Part shown: piece by piece, positions 5,665 through 11,174 of the stretch
Position numbering within the stretch: position 1 is the first letter of the stretch
Layout of the letters: the number at the start of each line of letters is the position of its first letter
From: Bauldia sp.
GTDB lineage: Bacteria > Pseudomonadota > Alphaproteobacteria > Rhizobiales > Kaistiaceae
Reading direction: 5' to 3'
Length of the DNA stretch: 46,063 nt
Assembly: GCF_020442045.1 (NCBI RefSeq)
Contig: NZ_JAGRLA010000091.1
Coordinates: 1-46,063 of the forward strand
Position numbers and translations under genes: made by a program
The notes under the pieces: generated by a model
The model's database searches: none
What the model was told of the DNA's origin: nothing
The model's input: the letters and a program-made list of their open reading frames with translations, nothing else

Positions 5665-7839
5665 TTGCGCCCCGCCGAGACGGTTTCTGTCCTGCTGCCG
5701 GTCGCCGTTGCCGGGACCTACAGCTATGCGGTTCCGGACGGGATGACGGCGGCGCCCGGCGACATCGTCGCCGTGCCGCTCGGCACCCGCGAGGTGATCG
5801 GCGTCGTCTGGGACGATCCGCCGGATGGGGAGATCGGCCATAACCGGCTGCGGCCGATCGCCGAGCGGCTCGACGTGCCGCCGTTGCTGAAGGAAATCCG
5901 CGCCTTCGTCGACTGGATCGCCGACTATACGCTGACGACGCGCGGCATGGTGCTGAGGATGGTGCTGAGGGCGCGGGGCGCGCTCGAACCCGAGGCGCCG
6001 ATCATCGGGGTCAGGCGCGCCGGCCCGCCGCCGGAACGGATGACGCCGGCGCGGCAGCGCGTGCTCCAGATGCTCGAGGACGGGGCGGCCTGGTCGAAAT
6101 CGGGGCTCGCGGCGGCGGCGGCGGTAAGCCCGGGCGTCGTCTCCGGGCTGGTCGATGCCGGGACGCTGGAGCCCGTCGCGATACCGGCCCGGCCGGTCGC
6201 CCAGCCGCCCGACACGGGATACGCGGCGCCGGTGCTCAACGACGAGCAGCGGGCCGCGGCCGATACGCTCCGCAAAGCGGTCGCCGATGGCGGCTTCTCG
6301 GTGACGCTGCTCGACGGCGTCACCGGCTCGGGCAAGACCGAGGTCTATTTCGAGGCGGTGGCGGCGGCGCTCGACAAGGGCAGGCAGGTGCTGGTGCTGA
6401 TCCCCGAGATCGCCCTGACCTCGGCCTTTCTCGAACGCTTCGCGGCGCGCTTCGGCGTCGCCCCGGCGGAATGGCATTCGGAGGTCGCGCCGCGGATGCG
6501 CGACCGGGTGTGGCGGGGCGTGGCGACCGGGCAGGTGAGGGCGGTGATCGGGGCGCGATCGGCGCTGTTCCTGCCCTTCCGGGAGCTCGGGCTGATCGTC
6601 GTCGACGAGGAGCACGACCTCGCCTACAAGCAGGAGGACCGCGTCTTCTATAACGCGCGGGACATGGCGGTGGTGCGCGGCCACCTAGCGGGTTTCCCGC
6701 TGGTGCTGTCCTCGGCGACGCCGTCGATCGAGAGCCGGGTCAACGCGGATTCGGGACGCTACCGGCGGATCGTGCTCTCCGACCGTTACGCCGCGGCGAC
6801 GCTGCCGGAGATCGCGGCGATCGACATGCGGGCGACCCAGCCCGAGCGCGGCCGCTTCATCTCGCCGCCGCTGGTCGAGGCGGTGACCGAGACGCTGGCG
6901 GAGGAGCAGCAGGCGCTGCTCTTCCTCAACCGGCGGGGCTACGCGCCGCTGACGCTCTGCCGGACCTGCGGCCACCGCTTCCAGTGCCCCAACTGCTCGA
7001 CCTGGCTGGTCGAGCATCGCTTCCGTGGCGTGCTGCTCTGCCACCATTGCGGCCACTCCGAGCCGCGGCCGGACCACTGCCCGAACTGCGGCGACACCGA
7101 GAGCCTGGTCGCGGTCGGACCGGGGGTGGAGCGGCTGGCGGAGGAGGTGACGGCGCGGTTTCCCGAGGCGCGAACCATCGTCATGTCGAGCGATATCGCC
7201 GGCGGGGTGCAGCGGCTCCGCCAGGACCTCAAGGCGATCGCCGACGGGGAGGTCGACATCGTCATCGGCACCCAGCTCGTCGCCAAGGGCCACAATTTCC
7301 CGCTGCTGACGCTGGTCGGGGTGGTCGACGGCGACCTCGGCCTCGCCTTCGGCGACATGCGGGCGGCGGAGCGGACCTTCCAGCTCCTTTCCCAGGTGAC
7401 CGGCCGCGCCGGGCGGGCGGGCGGGGCGAGCCGGGCGCTGGTCCAGACCTATGCGCCGGAGCATCCGGTGATCCGCGCCATCGTCTCCGGCGACCGCGAG
7501 GCCTTCTATGCGAGCGAGATCGCGGCGCGGCGCTCGGCCGGGCTGCCGCCCTTCGGGCGGCTGGTGGGCATCGTCATCTCCGGCCTCGACCGGGGGGAAA
7601 CGCAAGCCTACGCGGCGGCCTTCCGCCGGGCGGAACCGCGGGCCGAGGCGATCCAGGTGCTGGGTCCGGCCGAGGCGCCGCTGGCGGTTGTGCGCGGCCG
7701 CCACCGCTTCCGGCTGCTCGTCCAGGCGCCGCGCAACACCGACCTCCAGGCCTATCTCCGCGACTGGCTGGCGGCGGCGCCGAAGCCGCGGGGGAACCTG
7801 CGGGTCCAGGTGGACATCGACCCGCAGACCTTCATGTAA
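5665..7839 (+). CDS. priA: Primosomal protein N', replication restart helicase PriA
   Basis: PriA binds stalled forks and D-loops, unwinds lagging-strand duplex with ATP and reloads DnaB. The 724 residues show the N-terminal DNA-binding region, Walker A GVTGSGKTE around 217-225, Walker B DEEH at 314-317, and the zinc-binding cysteine cluster from Cys432 to Cys475 (CRTCGHRFQCPNC ... CHHCGHS ... CPNCG). The helicase C-terminal motifs follow (GTQLVAKGHNFP, QVTGRAGRAG). The start is TTG (MRPAETVSVLLPVAVAG), which fits the known N-terminal strand. No other primosome gene is adjacent; the atp operon that often lies near priA in Hyphomicrobiales begins 3.7 kb downstream, after two leftward genes. 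Confidence 0.96.
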   Translation: MRPAETVSVLLPVAVAGTYSYAVPDGMTAAPGDIVAVPLGTREVIGVVWDDPPDGEIGHNRLRPIAERLDVPPLLKEIRAFVDWIADYTLTTRGMVLRMVLRARGALEPEAPIIGVRRAGPPPERMTPARQRVLQMLEDGAAWSKSGLAAAAAVSPGVVSGLVDAGTLEPVAIPARPVAQPPDTGYAAPVLNDEQRAAADTLRKAVADGGFSVTLLDGVTGSGKTEVYFEAVAAALDKGRQVLVLIPEIALTSAFLERFAARFGVAPAEWHSEVAPRMRDRVWRGVATGQVRAVIGARSALFLPFRELGLIVVDEEHDLAYKQEDRVFYNARDMAVVRGHLAGFPLVLSSATPSIESRVNADSGRYRRIVLSDRYAAATLPEIAAIDMRATQPERGRFISPPLVEAVTETLAEEQQALLFLNRRGYAPLTLCRTCGHRFQCPNCSTWLVEHRFRGVLLCHHCGHSEPRPDHCPNCGDTESLVAVGPGVERLAEEVTARFPEARTIVMSSDIAGGVQRLRQDLKAIADGEVDIVIGTQLVAKGHNFPLLTLVGVVDGDLGLAFGDMRAAERTFQLLSQVTGRAGRAGGASRALVQTYAPEHPVIRAIVSGDREAFYASEIAARRSAGLPPFGRLVGIVISGLDRGETQAYAAAFRRAEPRAEAIQVLGPAEAPLAVVRGRHRFRLLVQAPRNTDLQAYLRDWLAAAPKPRGNLRVQVDIDPQTFM

Positions 7840-7899: not shown

Positions 7900-10044
7900 T
7901 CACATGTCGAAGTTCGAGTCGAGAAGGTGGGTGACGAACACCCGCAACATCACCTTCGCGGTCGTCTGGGGGAGGACCTCGGCGAAGGGAGGCCAGGCTG
8001 CCTCGACCAGGGCCGTCGCATCGGCACGGCATTGGTCGAAGGCGCCGGATTGCTCGATCAGCTCGATCCCAACCGCCAGGTCGCCGGCCTGGGACGTAGA
8101 GCGGAGGCCATCGAGGATGCGGATCAGCTCGGCCTGTCCCGCGCCCTCGAGCAGGGACACCGCCTTGCGCGTCACGTAGGTGACCTTTCCCGACAGGACG
8201 TCCTCGCCCCGGGTCTTGCCCCATTCGGGCCTGGTCGAGAAATTCCTGATGTCGTCGAAGATCTGGAAAGCGATGCCCCAGCTTTCGCCGAAGTCCATCG
8301 CCGCCTTGCGAATCCTTTCGTCGGTTCCCGCCACGATGCAGTCGATCTCGGAGATCGTCTTCACGGCGGCAGCGGTCTTGTAGGCATGGGCTTGCAGGAT
8401 GAGCCCGGCAAGCCGGTCTGACGTCCAGAAGGCGGGGCCGCGGACGGTGGCCGCATCGGACCAGTAAAGGTCCTGCGCCTGTCCCATATGCGCCTGCACG
8501 AACATGGTGGTGATCGCCCTGTAGATCGCGTCGCGCTGCTCCGGCACCAGCGCCGGGTGGTCGGAAAGGGTGAGGAGCGGAAGGAAATAGAGCTGGTTGC
8601 CGGCATTGATCGCGGTGGGCAGGCCGTAGCGGCGATGGATCGTCGGCGCGCCGCGCCGCGTCGCGGAATTGTCCTCAATGTCGTCGATGATCACCGATCC
8701 GTTGTGGATGAATTCGGAGATGACCGAGACCAGGGTCTCGTATGGCGCAAGCTCGACGCCGAGGGCGTCGAGCAGCATGAGCCCGTAGACGGGACGCCAG
8801 TGCTTGCCGCCGCGATCGAAGAGGTCCCATGCCGGGGTCGCGAGCATTGCGGTCTGGGCGTGGCTGTCGAAGGCCCAGCGCGGCTCTCCGACAAAGCCGG
8901 CAAGCCGGTCATCGTCGAGCTCGCGCGGAAGGAAGCGATGCATCGTCGCGTCGATGCGCTCGATCCACTGACGCTGGTAGGACCCGAAGTCGAGGATCAG
9001 GCCATAGCCGTTGAGCTCAAGCCGGGCCCGGCCGGTGGCGGGCCGGTCTCCAAGCACGCCCTCGATGCGGCCGACGCCCTCCCAGATCACGTTGGTGACG
9101 CCGAAGACGGGGATCTCCTGGCCGTCGGCCAGCGGTTCGAAGACGAGATCGGCGCCGAGCGAGGGAATGGCGATGCGGCAGGCCACCGGATAGGCGATCA
9201 TCGAATCGGGGCTGACCCATTGACGGAGCGGGGAGATGTCAGCGTCATGCACAGTCCGAGGCAGTTCGCCGGGAGCGAACAGAACGGCCAGACGGCCGAC
9301 CGCATCCCGCGAATGCATGTTGCGGCGGACCATGACAATGAGGTCGGTGCCGTCATCGAGGTTGATGCCGAGCCAGTCCCAGCCGAGCAGTTCGGCACTG
9401 GCGCCGAGCGTCTTCATCCATCCGTAGTCGCCCCACTGATGGTCCATCCAGGCTTCGCCGCGGATGGCCTCGCCGTCGACCGTGCCGGTCAGGGTCAGGC
9501 GCGGGCAGCTCTGGTAGGCCATGGCACCCGCGGGCGGGCAGTCGTCATTCAGCCACGTCGCGACCGGGCTTGCCGACATCGCGCAAACCGCACCGTCGTC
9601 GGGCATGGAGAACCGCATCGCGATGCCATCGCCGTCCTCGTCGAGAGCGAAGTCGCCCCAGTCGATCGCCAGGCGATCCTTCGCCATGGAGACCGGCCGC
9701 GCCGAAAGCAGGATCGGAGAGGGCACCCCGCCACGCTCGATCTCGGCAGTGAAGGCATCGACAAGGTTGCGGTTGATGCCCGCGCCCCGCAGTTCGTCCG
9801 GCGCCGCGCGGAGGAAGTGGTCGACCAGGCCGGGGGAGACTTCGCTGCGGACGGTGTGCTCGCCTTTCGCTTCGTCGAAAGACGACAGCAGGAGCATGTG
9901 TCCCTCGCCATTGCCGTCCCGCGATGCCTGGCGAAAGACCGAGGCTATGAAATCGCGCCGGTGACCGTCCGCCATCTCGAACCAGCCATGCACGAACCAC
10001 CACTCGATCGACGAGCCGCTCCGCGGCGCAAGTTTCGGCGCCAT
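7900..10044 (-). CDS. Fusion: CrtC/AttH lipocalin-like domain plus polyprenyl diphosphate synthase
   Basis: This is one uninterrupted 714-residue frame. Residues 1 to about 375 resemble the carotenoid 1,2-hydratase CrtC / AttH lipocalin-like family: SSIEWWFVHGWFE at 11-23, GEAWMDHQWGDYGW near 197-210, and a second barrel with SYQRQWIERID. Residues about 400-714 are an all-alpha isoprenyl diphosphate synthase: GGKHWRP (GGK at 412-414), first Asp-rich motif DDIEDNSATRRG (DDIED 454-458), GQAQDLYW, and second Asp-rich motif DDIRN (597-601). DDIEDNS plus an Asn in the second motif recalls type III (eukaryotic-like) GGPP synthases rather than IspA or octaprenyl synthases. It probably makes a prenyl diphosphate and then hydrates, cyclises or binds the product; that second step is inference. 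No carotenoid or terpene gene is adjacent. Confidence 0.85.
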   Translation of the reverse strand: MAPKLAPRSGSSIEWWFVHGWFEMADGHRRDFIASVFRQASRDGNGEGHMLLLSSFDEAKGEHTVRSEVSPGLVDHFLRAAPDELRGAGINRNLVDAFTAEIERGGVPSPILLSARPVSMAKDRLAIDWGDFALDEDGDGIAMRFSMPDDGAVCAMSASPVATWLNDDCPPAGAMAYQSCPRLTLTGTVDGEAIRGEAWMDHQWGDYGWMKTLGASAELLGWDWLGINLDDGTDLIVMVRRNMHSRDAVGRLAVLFAPGELPRTVHDADISPLRQWVSPDSMIAYPVACRIAIPSLGADLVFEPLADGQEIPVFGVTNVIWEGVGRIEGVLGDRPATGRARLELNGYGLILDFGSYQRQWIERIDATMHRFLPRELDDDRLAGFVGEPRWAFDSHAQTAMLATPAWDLFDRGGKHWRPVYGLMLLDALGVELAPYETLVSVISEFIHNGSVIIDDIEDNSATRRGAPTIHRRYGLPTAINAGNQLYFLPLLTLSDHPALVPEQRDAIYRAITTMFVQAHMGQAQDLYWSDAATVRGPAFWTSDRLAGLILQAHAYKTAAAVKTISEIDCIVAGTDERIRKAAMDFGESWGIAFQIFDDIRNFSTRPEWGKTRGEDVLSGKVTYVTRKAVSLLEGAGQAELIRILDGLRSTSQAGDLAVGIELIEQSGAFDQCRADATALVEAAWPPFAEVLPQTTAKVMLRVFVTHLLDSNFDM

Positions 10045-10190: not shown

Positions 10191-11174
10191 TCACGGGGCG
10201 CGGCGGTTGTCGCGGGCAGGGCCTTCTTCGCGTGCCTGATAGTCGCGGCGCTTGATCAGCGCCACCAGCGCGAAGCTGATGATGACGAGCAGGAACCACG
10301 AGCCGAGCTTCGGCAGCCCGACGATGGTCCATGCCTCCCGCTGGCCGGGATAGAGCCAGGTCCGCGTGTAGGTGCCGATGTTCTCCGCGAACCAGATGAA
10401 GGCGGCGATGAGGACGAATCCGAGGAGAAGCGGCATCCAGCGCGCCTTCCGCCAGACGACGAAGTAGACCCTGGTCCGCCAGAGCAGCGCTGCCGCCGCC
10501 GCGAACAGCACGAGGCGGAGGTCGACGACATAGTGGTGGGTGAAGAAGTTGGCGTAGCTCGCCGCGCTCACGAGCCCGAGCGCCCAGAGCGGCGGCTGGC
10601 CGGTGAAGCGGAGGTGGAAGAGCCGCCAGGCGCGGCAGAGGTAGCTGCCGATGCAGGAATACATGAAGCCGGTGAAGAGCGGTACGCCGCCAATGTGGAA
10701 AAAGCTCGGGTCGGGATAGATCCAGGACCCCTGGGCGGTCTTGAAGATCTCCATCACGGTGCCGACGATGTGGTAGGCGAGGATGACCTTCGCTTCCTCG
10801 AAGGTCTCGAGCCGGAAGGCGAGCAGACCCGCCTGCACGGTCAGCGCAGCGAGGAAGAGGAAGTCGTAGCGCGCCAGCGCGGCGTCCCGCGGGTACCAAT
10901 AGTGGGTGGCGATCAGGAGGGCGAGCATGATGCCGCCGAAGAGGCACGCCCAGGCCTGCTTCATGCCGAAACGGAGGAACTCGTAGCCGGCGGCGGCAAA
11001 AGGGCCGCGCGCCATCATCCGCCCGGCGAAACGGCGCTCGGCGGCTACGTAGGGGCGCAGGAATCCCCACGCGGCGGCGGCGCTTTCCGGCGAGCCCGCG
11101 AAGCGGTCGCCAACCCGGCGGACCGCGCCATGCACCCTGCGCGGGAAATCGCGTATCCCGGTTGTTTCTGACAA
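10191..11174 (-). CDS. DUF817 family integral membrane protein
   Basis: The protein has 327 residues from a TTG start, with about eight hydrophobic segments between residues 80 and 310. The family signature is clear in the middle: EIFKTAQGSWIYPDPSFFHI followed by GGVPLFTGFMYSCIGSYLCRAWR and later NFFTHHYVVDLR. DUF817 proteins are inner-membrane proteins of unknown function; some resemble carotenoid-pathway or lipid-modifying membrane proteins only in general topology. The gene is leftward, 146 bases upstream of the lipocalin-prenyl synthase fusion, so the two could be cotranscribed, which hints at a lipid or isoprenoid link but does not prove it. Confidence 0.85.
   Translation of the reverse strand: MSETTGIRDFPRRVHGAVRRVGDRFAGSPESAAAAWGFLRPYVAAERRFAGRMMARGPFAAAGYEFLRFGMKQAWACLFGGIMLALLIATHYWYPRDAALARYDFLFLAALTVQAGLLAFRLETFEEAKVILAYHIVGTVMEIFKTAQGSWIYPDPSFFHIGGVPLFTGFMYSCIGSYLCRAWRLFHLRFTGQPPLWALGLVSAASYANFFTHHYVVDLRLVLFAAAAALLWRTRVYFVVWRKARWMPLLLGFVLIAAFIWFAENIGTYTRTWLYPGQREAWTIVGLPKLGSWFLLVIISFALVALIKRRDYQAREEGPARDNRRAP

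Follow-up and report, generated by a model that had tools for sequence, protein, structure and literature searches.

A widespread, apparently undescribed protein family joining a CrtC/AttH-type lipocalin half to a prenyl diphosphate synthase

Enzymes of terpene chemistry are commonly divided into class I and class II helical synthases, and in the bifunctional terpene synthases of fungi the partner domain is a helical terpene cyclase. Here we describe another pairing in a 46,063-nucleotide stretch of DNA (the window) from Bauldia sp. (Alphaproteobacteria, Kaistiaceae; GCF_020442045.1, contig NZ_JAGRLA010000091.1), in which one reading frame joins a lipocalin-like half to a synthase resembling geranylgeranyl diphosphate (GGPP) synthases. 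Like PvCPS and fusicoccadiene synthase, which are among its sequence matches, the protein combines a terpene-modifying and a prenyltransferase domain in one chain; unlike the PvCPS type, with its N-terminal helical terpene cyclase, it has only CrtC and Lipocalin_9 before the polyprenyl synthetase domain. A preliminary description of this DNA had held that the prenyl diphosphate maker and the next enzyme are usually separate, a view that the fungal proteins qualify. Because such synthase fusions were already known, the novelty lies in the lipocalin-type module and not in fusion as such. Our tentative reading, to which we give a little less than an even chance, is that the C-terminal half would make GGPP and that the N-terminal half would then protonate and hydrate its omega double bond.

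The lipocalin half resembles kievitone hydratase of Nectria haematococca (7a0q, 7a0t) in its CrtC-superfamily fold, its W-x-D-[RH]-Q-W-G motif and its presumed target, a prenyl double bond; that protein, however, is a separate fungal enzyme acting on prenylated isoflavonoids and lacks a synthase domain. CrtC, which hydrates terminal isoprene units and also C12-C20 terpenes, shares aligned catalytic Asp and Trp positions with the fusion but is remote in sequence, has Tyr266 where the fusion has Trp, and is encoded on its own in the photosynthesis gene cluster. AttH (DUF2006; NE1406, 2ich) is standalone and of uncharacterised function. The synthase half carries the signature of type III GGPP synthases such as human GGPS1 and yeast Bts1 (IDDIEDNS..RRG..H..YG..IN..N..YFL and H-x-GQ-x-D-x-YW), from which it differs in bearing a lipocalin and in having archaeal and candidate phyla radiation (CPR)-type synthases as its nearest standalone relatives in our tree.

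The fusion is real: CrtC, Lipocalin_9 and polyprenyl_synt lie in a single open reading frame (ORF) of 714 amino acids (aa), with an ATG start and no internal stop, as follows.

7900..10044, minus strand: gene for the 714-aa fusion of lipocalin half and prenyl diphosphate synthase (ORF listing, Pfam, homologues, model)
9430..10008, minus strand: CrtC N-terminal lipocalin domain PF07143, residues 13-205 (Pfam)
9004..9393, minus strand: Lipocalin_9 second barrel PF17186, residues 218-347 (Pfam)
8848..9000, minus strand: junction, residues 349-399 (model; block pLDDT, the per-residue model confidence, 85-97 over residues 341-400)
8110..8847, minus strand: polyprenyl synthetase domain PF00348, residues 400-645, type III GGPP synthase-like (Pfam, sequence matches)

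All three domains exceed their Pfam cut-offs (CrtC 46.4 bits against 22.5; Lipocalin_9 69.3 against 26.2; polyprenyl_synt 150.1 against 27), and family membership is thus confident for both halves, in agreement with the joined frame first proposed from the letters. Searched on its own, the lipocalin half finds the solved structure of AttH (2ich, 4.1e-17) and the synthase half that of a GGPP synthase (5jfq, 4.7e-25). The AlphaFold model of the full chain, a check proposed in the preliminary description, has a pTM (predicted template modelling score) of 0.91, and we regard the two predicted folds with confidence. The N-terminal half is modelled as a double lipocalin-like barrel matching AttH. 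The VIA-align rows span chiefly residues 349-712. The junction is mostly helical in the model (353-371, 378-385 and from 394), with no disordered linker.

A protein search at 1e-10 returned 202 matches, and among the 120 matches listed, the window protein included, 116 carry all three domains and the other four lack PF07143 only. At least 470 stretches in the GTDB genome collection encode a relative. In 41 of the best 80 loci the alignment to the window protein runs unbroken across the joint; 38 match the synthase half alone (one of them, L051, on a 3.3-kb contig that may be a cut piece) and one, L054, matches the lipocalin half alone. In none of these 80 do the two halves align to the window protein as separate pieces, and the split at the joint that would have spoken against a fusion was not seen; frame breaks in two loci from metagenome-assembled genomes (MAGs; L041, L048) fall within the lipocalin part. 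Since the three domains occur together in 116 of the 120 listed homologues and the joint is unsplit in the loci, the join is neither a chance or frameshift event nor an assembly artefact.

The 41 through-joint loci include Desulfatitalea, Phycisphaerales, Aminicenantes, Scalindua, Omnitrophota, Balneolaceae, Melioribacteraceae, Acidobacteria, Methanoregula and Methanoculleus, and those at 25-29% identity include Flavobacterium, Myxococcota, Verrucomicrobia, Streptomyces and Legionella. Profiles built from the family alignment place both halves in 40 ORFs of the first 100 loci, among which L001 is the window and L002 a repeat of L021. The closest relative of the window protein is in Bauldia litoralis (62% identity). 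Near the window's own lineage, three of 61 genomes (its own and 60 relatives; G000, G002 and G039) have the fusion in full, and the same-genus genomes G001 and G004 in that set carry only a related lipocalin. At the level of the order, PF07143 occurs in frames >700 aa in five of 150 genomes, namely these three plus G496 and G511, the last two counted by PF07143 and frame length and not by the synthase half. Lipocalin_9 is present in 96 of 398 Pseudomonadota genomes, and just 10 of 100 matches, the window's included, lie in frames >600 aa, counted by frame length and not by the synthase domain; as a marker of the fusion it was rejected on this count. The family occurs in all three domains of life, with members in bacteria, archaea, fungi and a diatom. 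Some source records name the protein 'geranylgeranyl pyrophosphate synthase/predicted secreted hydrolase', and the architecture has thus been visible to annotators. No paper on a lipocalin–synthase fusion was found in a literature search that missed most subscription papers and all preprints, and this widespread bifunctional family is apparently undescribed.

The catalytic motifs of the synthase half are located as follows.

8671..8685, minus strand: first Asp-rich motif, D454-D-I-E-D458 (alignment of 74, motif scan of 161)
8242..8256, minus strand: second Asp-rich motif, D597-D-I-R-N601, of the form DDxxN (alignment, motif scan)

Residues 430-545 match human GGPP synthase best (6.9e-19), followed by the yeast enzyme and the prenyltransferase domain of a fungal copalyl diphosphate synthase. 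Sixteen NCBIfam families match, every one a prenyl-synthase model and every one under its cut-off, and the half is therefore not a standard named equivalog. The first motif, DDxxD followed by R463-R464 in the window, is found in 160 of 161 full-length relatives, a set left after eight of 169 sequences shorter than 600 aa were dropped; the counts come from loose regular expressions, and some sequences are present from both the protein and the locus source. The second motif is DDxxN, as in the window, in 108 relatives, DDxxD in 12 and an ND pattern in 32. The assertion that both halves keep their core motifs thus stands apart from this site, which is not the classic DDxxD, and from the CrtC Tyr266 position, which is Trp. 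Animal GGPP synthases also have DDxxN, and for this reason it lowers no claim of GGPP synthase-like action. Ser450 and Gly449 stand four and five positions ahead of the first motif; as neither is bulky, early chain growth would not be blocked, and with the type III signature this points to a C20 product.

The same features leave some room for a class I terpene synthase-type cyclase or a longer-chain maker, on whose product the lipocalin half would act. The variable second motif and the lack of a bulky residue just before the first are compatible with it, but D454, D458, R463, R464, K556, Q594 and D598 are invariant in 74 aligned relatives and the best match is a GGPP synthase, and we consider it the least probable of the readings. 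In P0076, P0079 and P0095 the second motif is ND instead of DD, with the GGK region also altered in P0095, and the activity of these synthase halves may be altered. The window's own genome holds two further PF00348 genes and one SQS_PSY-family gene of unassigned role, and the genome domain scan found no second Lipocalin_9.

In the lipocalin half, two elements carry the proposed chemistry.

9442..9444, minus strand: Asp201 codon, within W-x-D-H-Q-W-G; predicted to donate the proton and aligned with CrtC Asp268 (alignments)
9373..9381, minus strand: Trp222-x-Trp224, predicted carbocation-stabilising pair, aligned with CrtC W-x-W (alignments)

Searched against PDB sequences with E up to 1, a profile built from the lipocalin halves of 21 fusions plus the standalone L054 (22 in all) matches only AttH (1e-38) and kievitone hydratase (1.6e-13), and W-Y-D-R-Q-W-G of the latter falls on the Asp201 motif. 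The motifs of the AttH/kievitone hydratase group, W-x-D-[HR]-[QE]-W-G and W-x-W, are both present in the window. Judging from these profiles, the closest functional precedent is this group rather than CrtC; of the hydratase/cyclase-type (CrtC/AttH) assignment in the preliminary description, membership in the CrtC superfamily holds, while kinship with CrtC proper is more distant. PF07143 matches just two of 20 photosynthetic genomes, and since most of these genomes are missed it marks the superfamily and not CrtC. Both matches group with AttH-like rows, and CrtC proper was accordingly represented by five sequences from photosynthesis clusters, picked by motif, which biases the CrtC motif columns. 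With that bias, G196-E-A-W199-M-D201-H-Q-W-G205 of the window aligns on CrtC G-x-[AG]-Y-x-D-x-N-x-G, and W222-D-W224 on W-x-W. The Asp201 column holds D in 41 of 45 fusions (E in 3, N in 1), in 10/10 standalone lipocalins and in 5/5 CrtC; Trp is found in 39 of the 45 fusions at position 15, in 45 at 16, 44 at 222 and 43 at 224.

A study of Rubrivivax CrtC reports a requirement for His239, Trp241, Tyr266 and Asp268 (PMC4717167), and another names Trp110, Trp283, Trp285 and Asp268 as important in C12-C20 terpene hydration, with geranylgeraniol at 4%, and notes a fragment at m/z 59 for terminally hydrated prenyl units (PMC12402844). Kievitone hydratase adds water to a prenylated isoflavanone (PMC6013536). 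Because the fusion is conserved and the active-site residues of both halves are kept, a two-step enzyme is the natural reading. The C-terminal half would first build GGPP (C20); Asp201 would then act as the acid that protonates the far (omega) double bond, Trp15/16 and Trp222/224 may stabilise the resulting cation, and water would quench it to a tertiary alcohol. The lipocalin half may take either the diphosphate or the free alcohol, and the chain may move straight from one site to the other, the handover suggested in the preliminary description. In relatives, the product is likely to be an envelope or exported lipid, moved by ATP-binding cassette (ABC), MMPL or resistance-nodulation-division (RND) exporters, and could be reduced where a geranylgeranyl reductase-like gene adjoins, or glycosylated and sulfated in five-module forms.

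Several observations weigh against hydration. Aligned by hhalign, the lipocalin half and CrtC score weakly (E 0.003, probability 10%), four of 45 fusions have no Asp at the Asp201 position, the position of CrtC Tyr266 (Tyr in 5/5 CrtC) is Trp199, with Trp in 45/45 fusions, and equivalents of His239/Trp241 (His-x-Trp) are not seen in the aligned stretch, where the alignment is weak. Asp201 is also kept in uncharacterised standalone AttH and is therefore by itself no proof of hydratase chemistry, and two other members of the superfamily, PenF and AsqC, catalyse epoxide rearrangement (PMC6013536). The gene context, for which ORFs of 45 loci and the window were clustered and a selection of them scanned, points the same way: no terpenoid or exporter gene was recognised next to the window fusion, nor among the scanned neighbours in Bauldia litoralis (L021) and L101, save the TamB envelope protein of L101. 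Other neighbours are unrelated (a PfkB kinase at L023, a cysteine peptidase at L027, sugar-nucleotide enzymes and malate synthase at L049, an iron-type ABC importer at L025, a Na+/H+ antiporter at L050, and a SIS-domain regulator beside TamB at L101), and the scanned neighbours at L021, L086 and L053 have no match. A genuine carotenoid hydratase was rejected, as Tyr266 is not kept and the half is remote from CrtC.

The substrate could also be cyclised instead of hydrated. In that case the lipocalin half would be a proton-initiated, class II-like cyclase on a lipocalin scaffold, closing a ring to give a cyclic diterpenyl diphosphate. The acid and the aromatic residues proposed for hydration would suit this reaction as well; the logic is that of PvCPS, a copalyl diphosphate synthase that carries a prenyltransferase domain of its own; and a Lycopene_cyc-like membrane protein adjoins three fusions (over cut-off at L024 and L069, below it at L041) and three standalone lipocalins (over cut-off at L054 and L102, just below it at L103).

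L024:9262-9960, L054:2491-3240, L069:8986-9660, L102:8515-9315, L103:5543-6346, L041:5929-6666: Lycopene_cyc-like ORFs

On the other side, no helical terpene cyclase domain appears in the Pfam scan, and CrtC and kievitone hydratase, the characterised relatives that act on unactivated prenyl tails, add water. Hydration is the best supported reading, and cyclisation, its main rival, seems less likely.

Transport-type neighbours bear on a further alternative, in which the lipocalin half would be a carrier that binds or shields the prenyl product and passes it unchanged to membrane enzymes or exporters. A MacB/FtsX-type permease cluster occurs in nine loci (L029, L031, L033, L036, L037, L041, L069 and the standalone-lipocalin loci L102 and L103; confirmed by Pfam in L033 and L102), and MMPL genes adjoin L026, L027, L030 and the standalone L054. 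AcrB (L074), ABC-2 with HlyD (L059), HlyD (L031), MlaC (L036, L103) and a LolA-like protein (L037) are further examples, and in annotated records the Streptomyces canus copy adjoins ABC permease and ATPase genes and the Tolypothrix copy lies among genes for DevC, an ABC ATPase and a membrane fusion protein. The AttH structure paper proposes lipid binding and reports a genome-context link to the lipoprotein-releasing system (PMC2954199). A near-invariant acid and near-invariant Trp residues that the fusions share with CrtC and kievitone hydratase fit catalysis better than binding, however, and we think a pure carrier improbable.

Possible terpenoid partners adjoin some relatives. A geranylgeranyl reductase family gene lies beside L028 (TIGR02032 over cut-off), where the longest two ORFs share 4 nt, and beside L022; HMG-CoA synthase and a glycosyltransferase-like gene adjoin L055, and a fatty acid desaturase L052. 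Methanogen copies (L043; also L038, L039 and L042) sit behind a phosphoenolpyruvate (PEP) synthase/rifampin phosphotransferase-like protein, which in L043 (7113-9797) has PPDK_N and PEP-utilizers domains and is under the cut-off of every NCBIfam model listed; phosphorylation of the product is possible there. In the window, the convergent gene at 5665-7839 on the plus strand is one that we take, from its sequence, to be priA. Upstream of the fusion lies one gene on the same strand:

10191..11174, minus strand: DUF817 membrane-protein gene, 146 nt from the fusion (Pfam)

It is possibly co-transcribed with the fusion, but its membership in the system is doubtful. An operon with DUF817 was rejected, as tblastn finds DUF817 in no fetched locus except the window's. 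With only DUF817 here and mixed neighbours elsewhere, the window enzyme may work alone.

Phylogenetic analysis of the synthase half covered 46 of 223 both-half ORFs (duplicates present) and 24 of 59 standalone synthases, with animal and fungal GGPP synthases outside the tree. All 46 fusions fall on one side of one branch (98/96; 98% of 200 bootstrap trees), and the nearest standalone synthases are from Bathyarchaeota, Woesearchaeota, Aenigmarchaeota, Micrarchaeota and similar groups. The fusions form clade A, which holds the window (24 rows, 100/99), and clade B (22 rows, 100/99); long branches and an unusual letter composition were flagged for some rows. The Lycopene_cyc-like neighbours belong to lipocalins of clade A, fused and standalone alike. 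A single origin of the synthase half is supported by this tree, while that of the lipocalin half is not settled. The lipocalin tree held 45 fusions (P0172 was left out, its matched stretch being too short), five CrtC and 10 of 14 lipocalin-only ORFs, the others being two duplicates and two fragments. In it clade A is one group (100/100), yet it holds three standalone lipocalins; the remaining standalone AttH-like rows form their own group (100/100) apart from the clade-A fusions, and the base of clade B is unresolved. The three are the same-genus L102 and L103 together with L054, and as they nest inside clade A (100/100 for the clade, 94/85 at the inner node), loss of the synthase half is the likelier history. 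Split fusions were rejected for these loci, in which a synthase ORF was not detected.

Longer chains were found in a second, targeted protein search that gave 55 proteins. A sulfotransferase and/or glycosyltransferase domain is present in 17 of them (P0121-P0136, P0139), including proteins of Tolypothrix, a Polyangiaceae MAG and the haloarchaeon Halocatena halophila. Single ORFs of 1509 aa in Tolypothrix (L105:12103-16632) and the Polyangiaceae MAG (L057:7604-12133) consist of five modules: sulfotransferase, GT28/EryCIII-type glycosyltransferase, CrtC, Lipocalin_9 and polyprenyl_synt. The Tolypothrix copy is plasmid-borne, and an adenylyl-sulfate kinase lies further off in the same region. A PX (phosphoinositide-binding) domain occurs in 15 of the 55, of which P0154 comes from a eukaryote protein set.

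P0141-P0147, P0149, P0151, P0152, P0154-P0157, P0165: PX-domain relatives

Other long relatives belong to the diatom Seminavis robusta and to two basidiomycete fungi, and on the strength of the PX-domain, diatom and basidiomycete copies the family is present in eukaryotes.

The fusion likely marks a widespread and uncharacterised way of making terpenoids. More broadly, it may represent a third type of machinery for modifying terpenes. Such a protein would be a proton-initiated hydratase/cyclase of lipocalin fold, permanently attached to a GGPP synthase of its own. It would have arisen once and reached bacteria, archaea, cyanobacteria, fungi, diatoms and, in the PX-domain proteins, probably protists, and the five-module chains of some lineages would make a sulfated terpenoid glycoside out of isoprene units within a single polypeptide for envelope export. 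We advance this wider proposal as a possibility, and somewhat less readily than hydration itself. With one gene and simple substrates, the claim is directly testable. The family points to cell-envelope lipids for which the literature search found no description, and, if the proposal is true, a beta-barrel module attached to the synthase that makes its chain would offer hydroxylated or cyclic terpenoids, and terpene hydration that needs no cofactor, from a source not yet mined.
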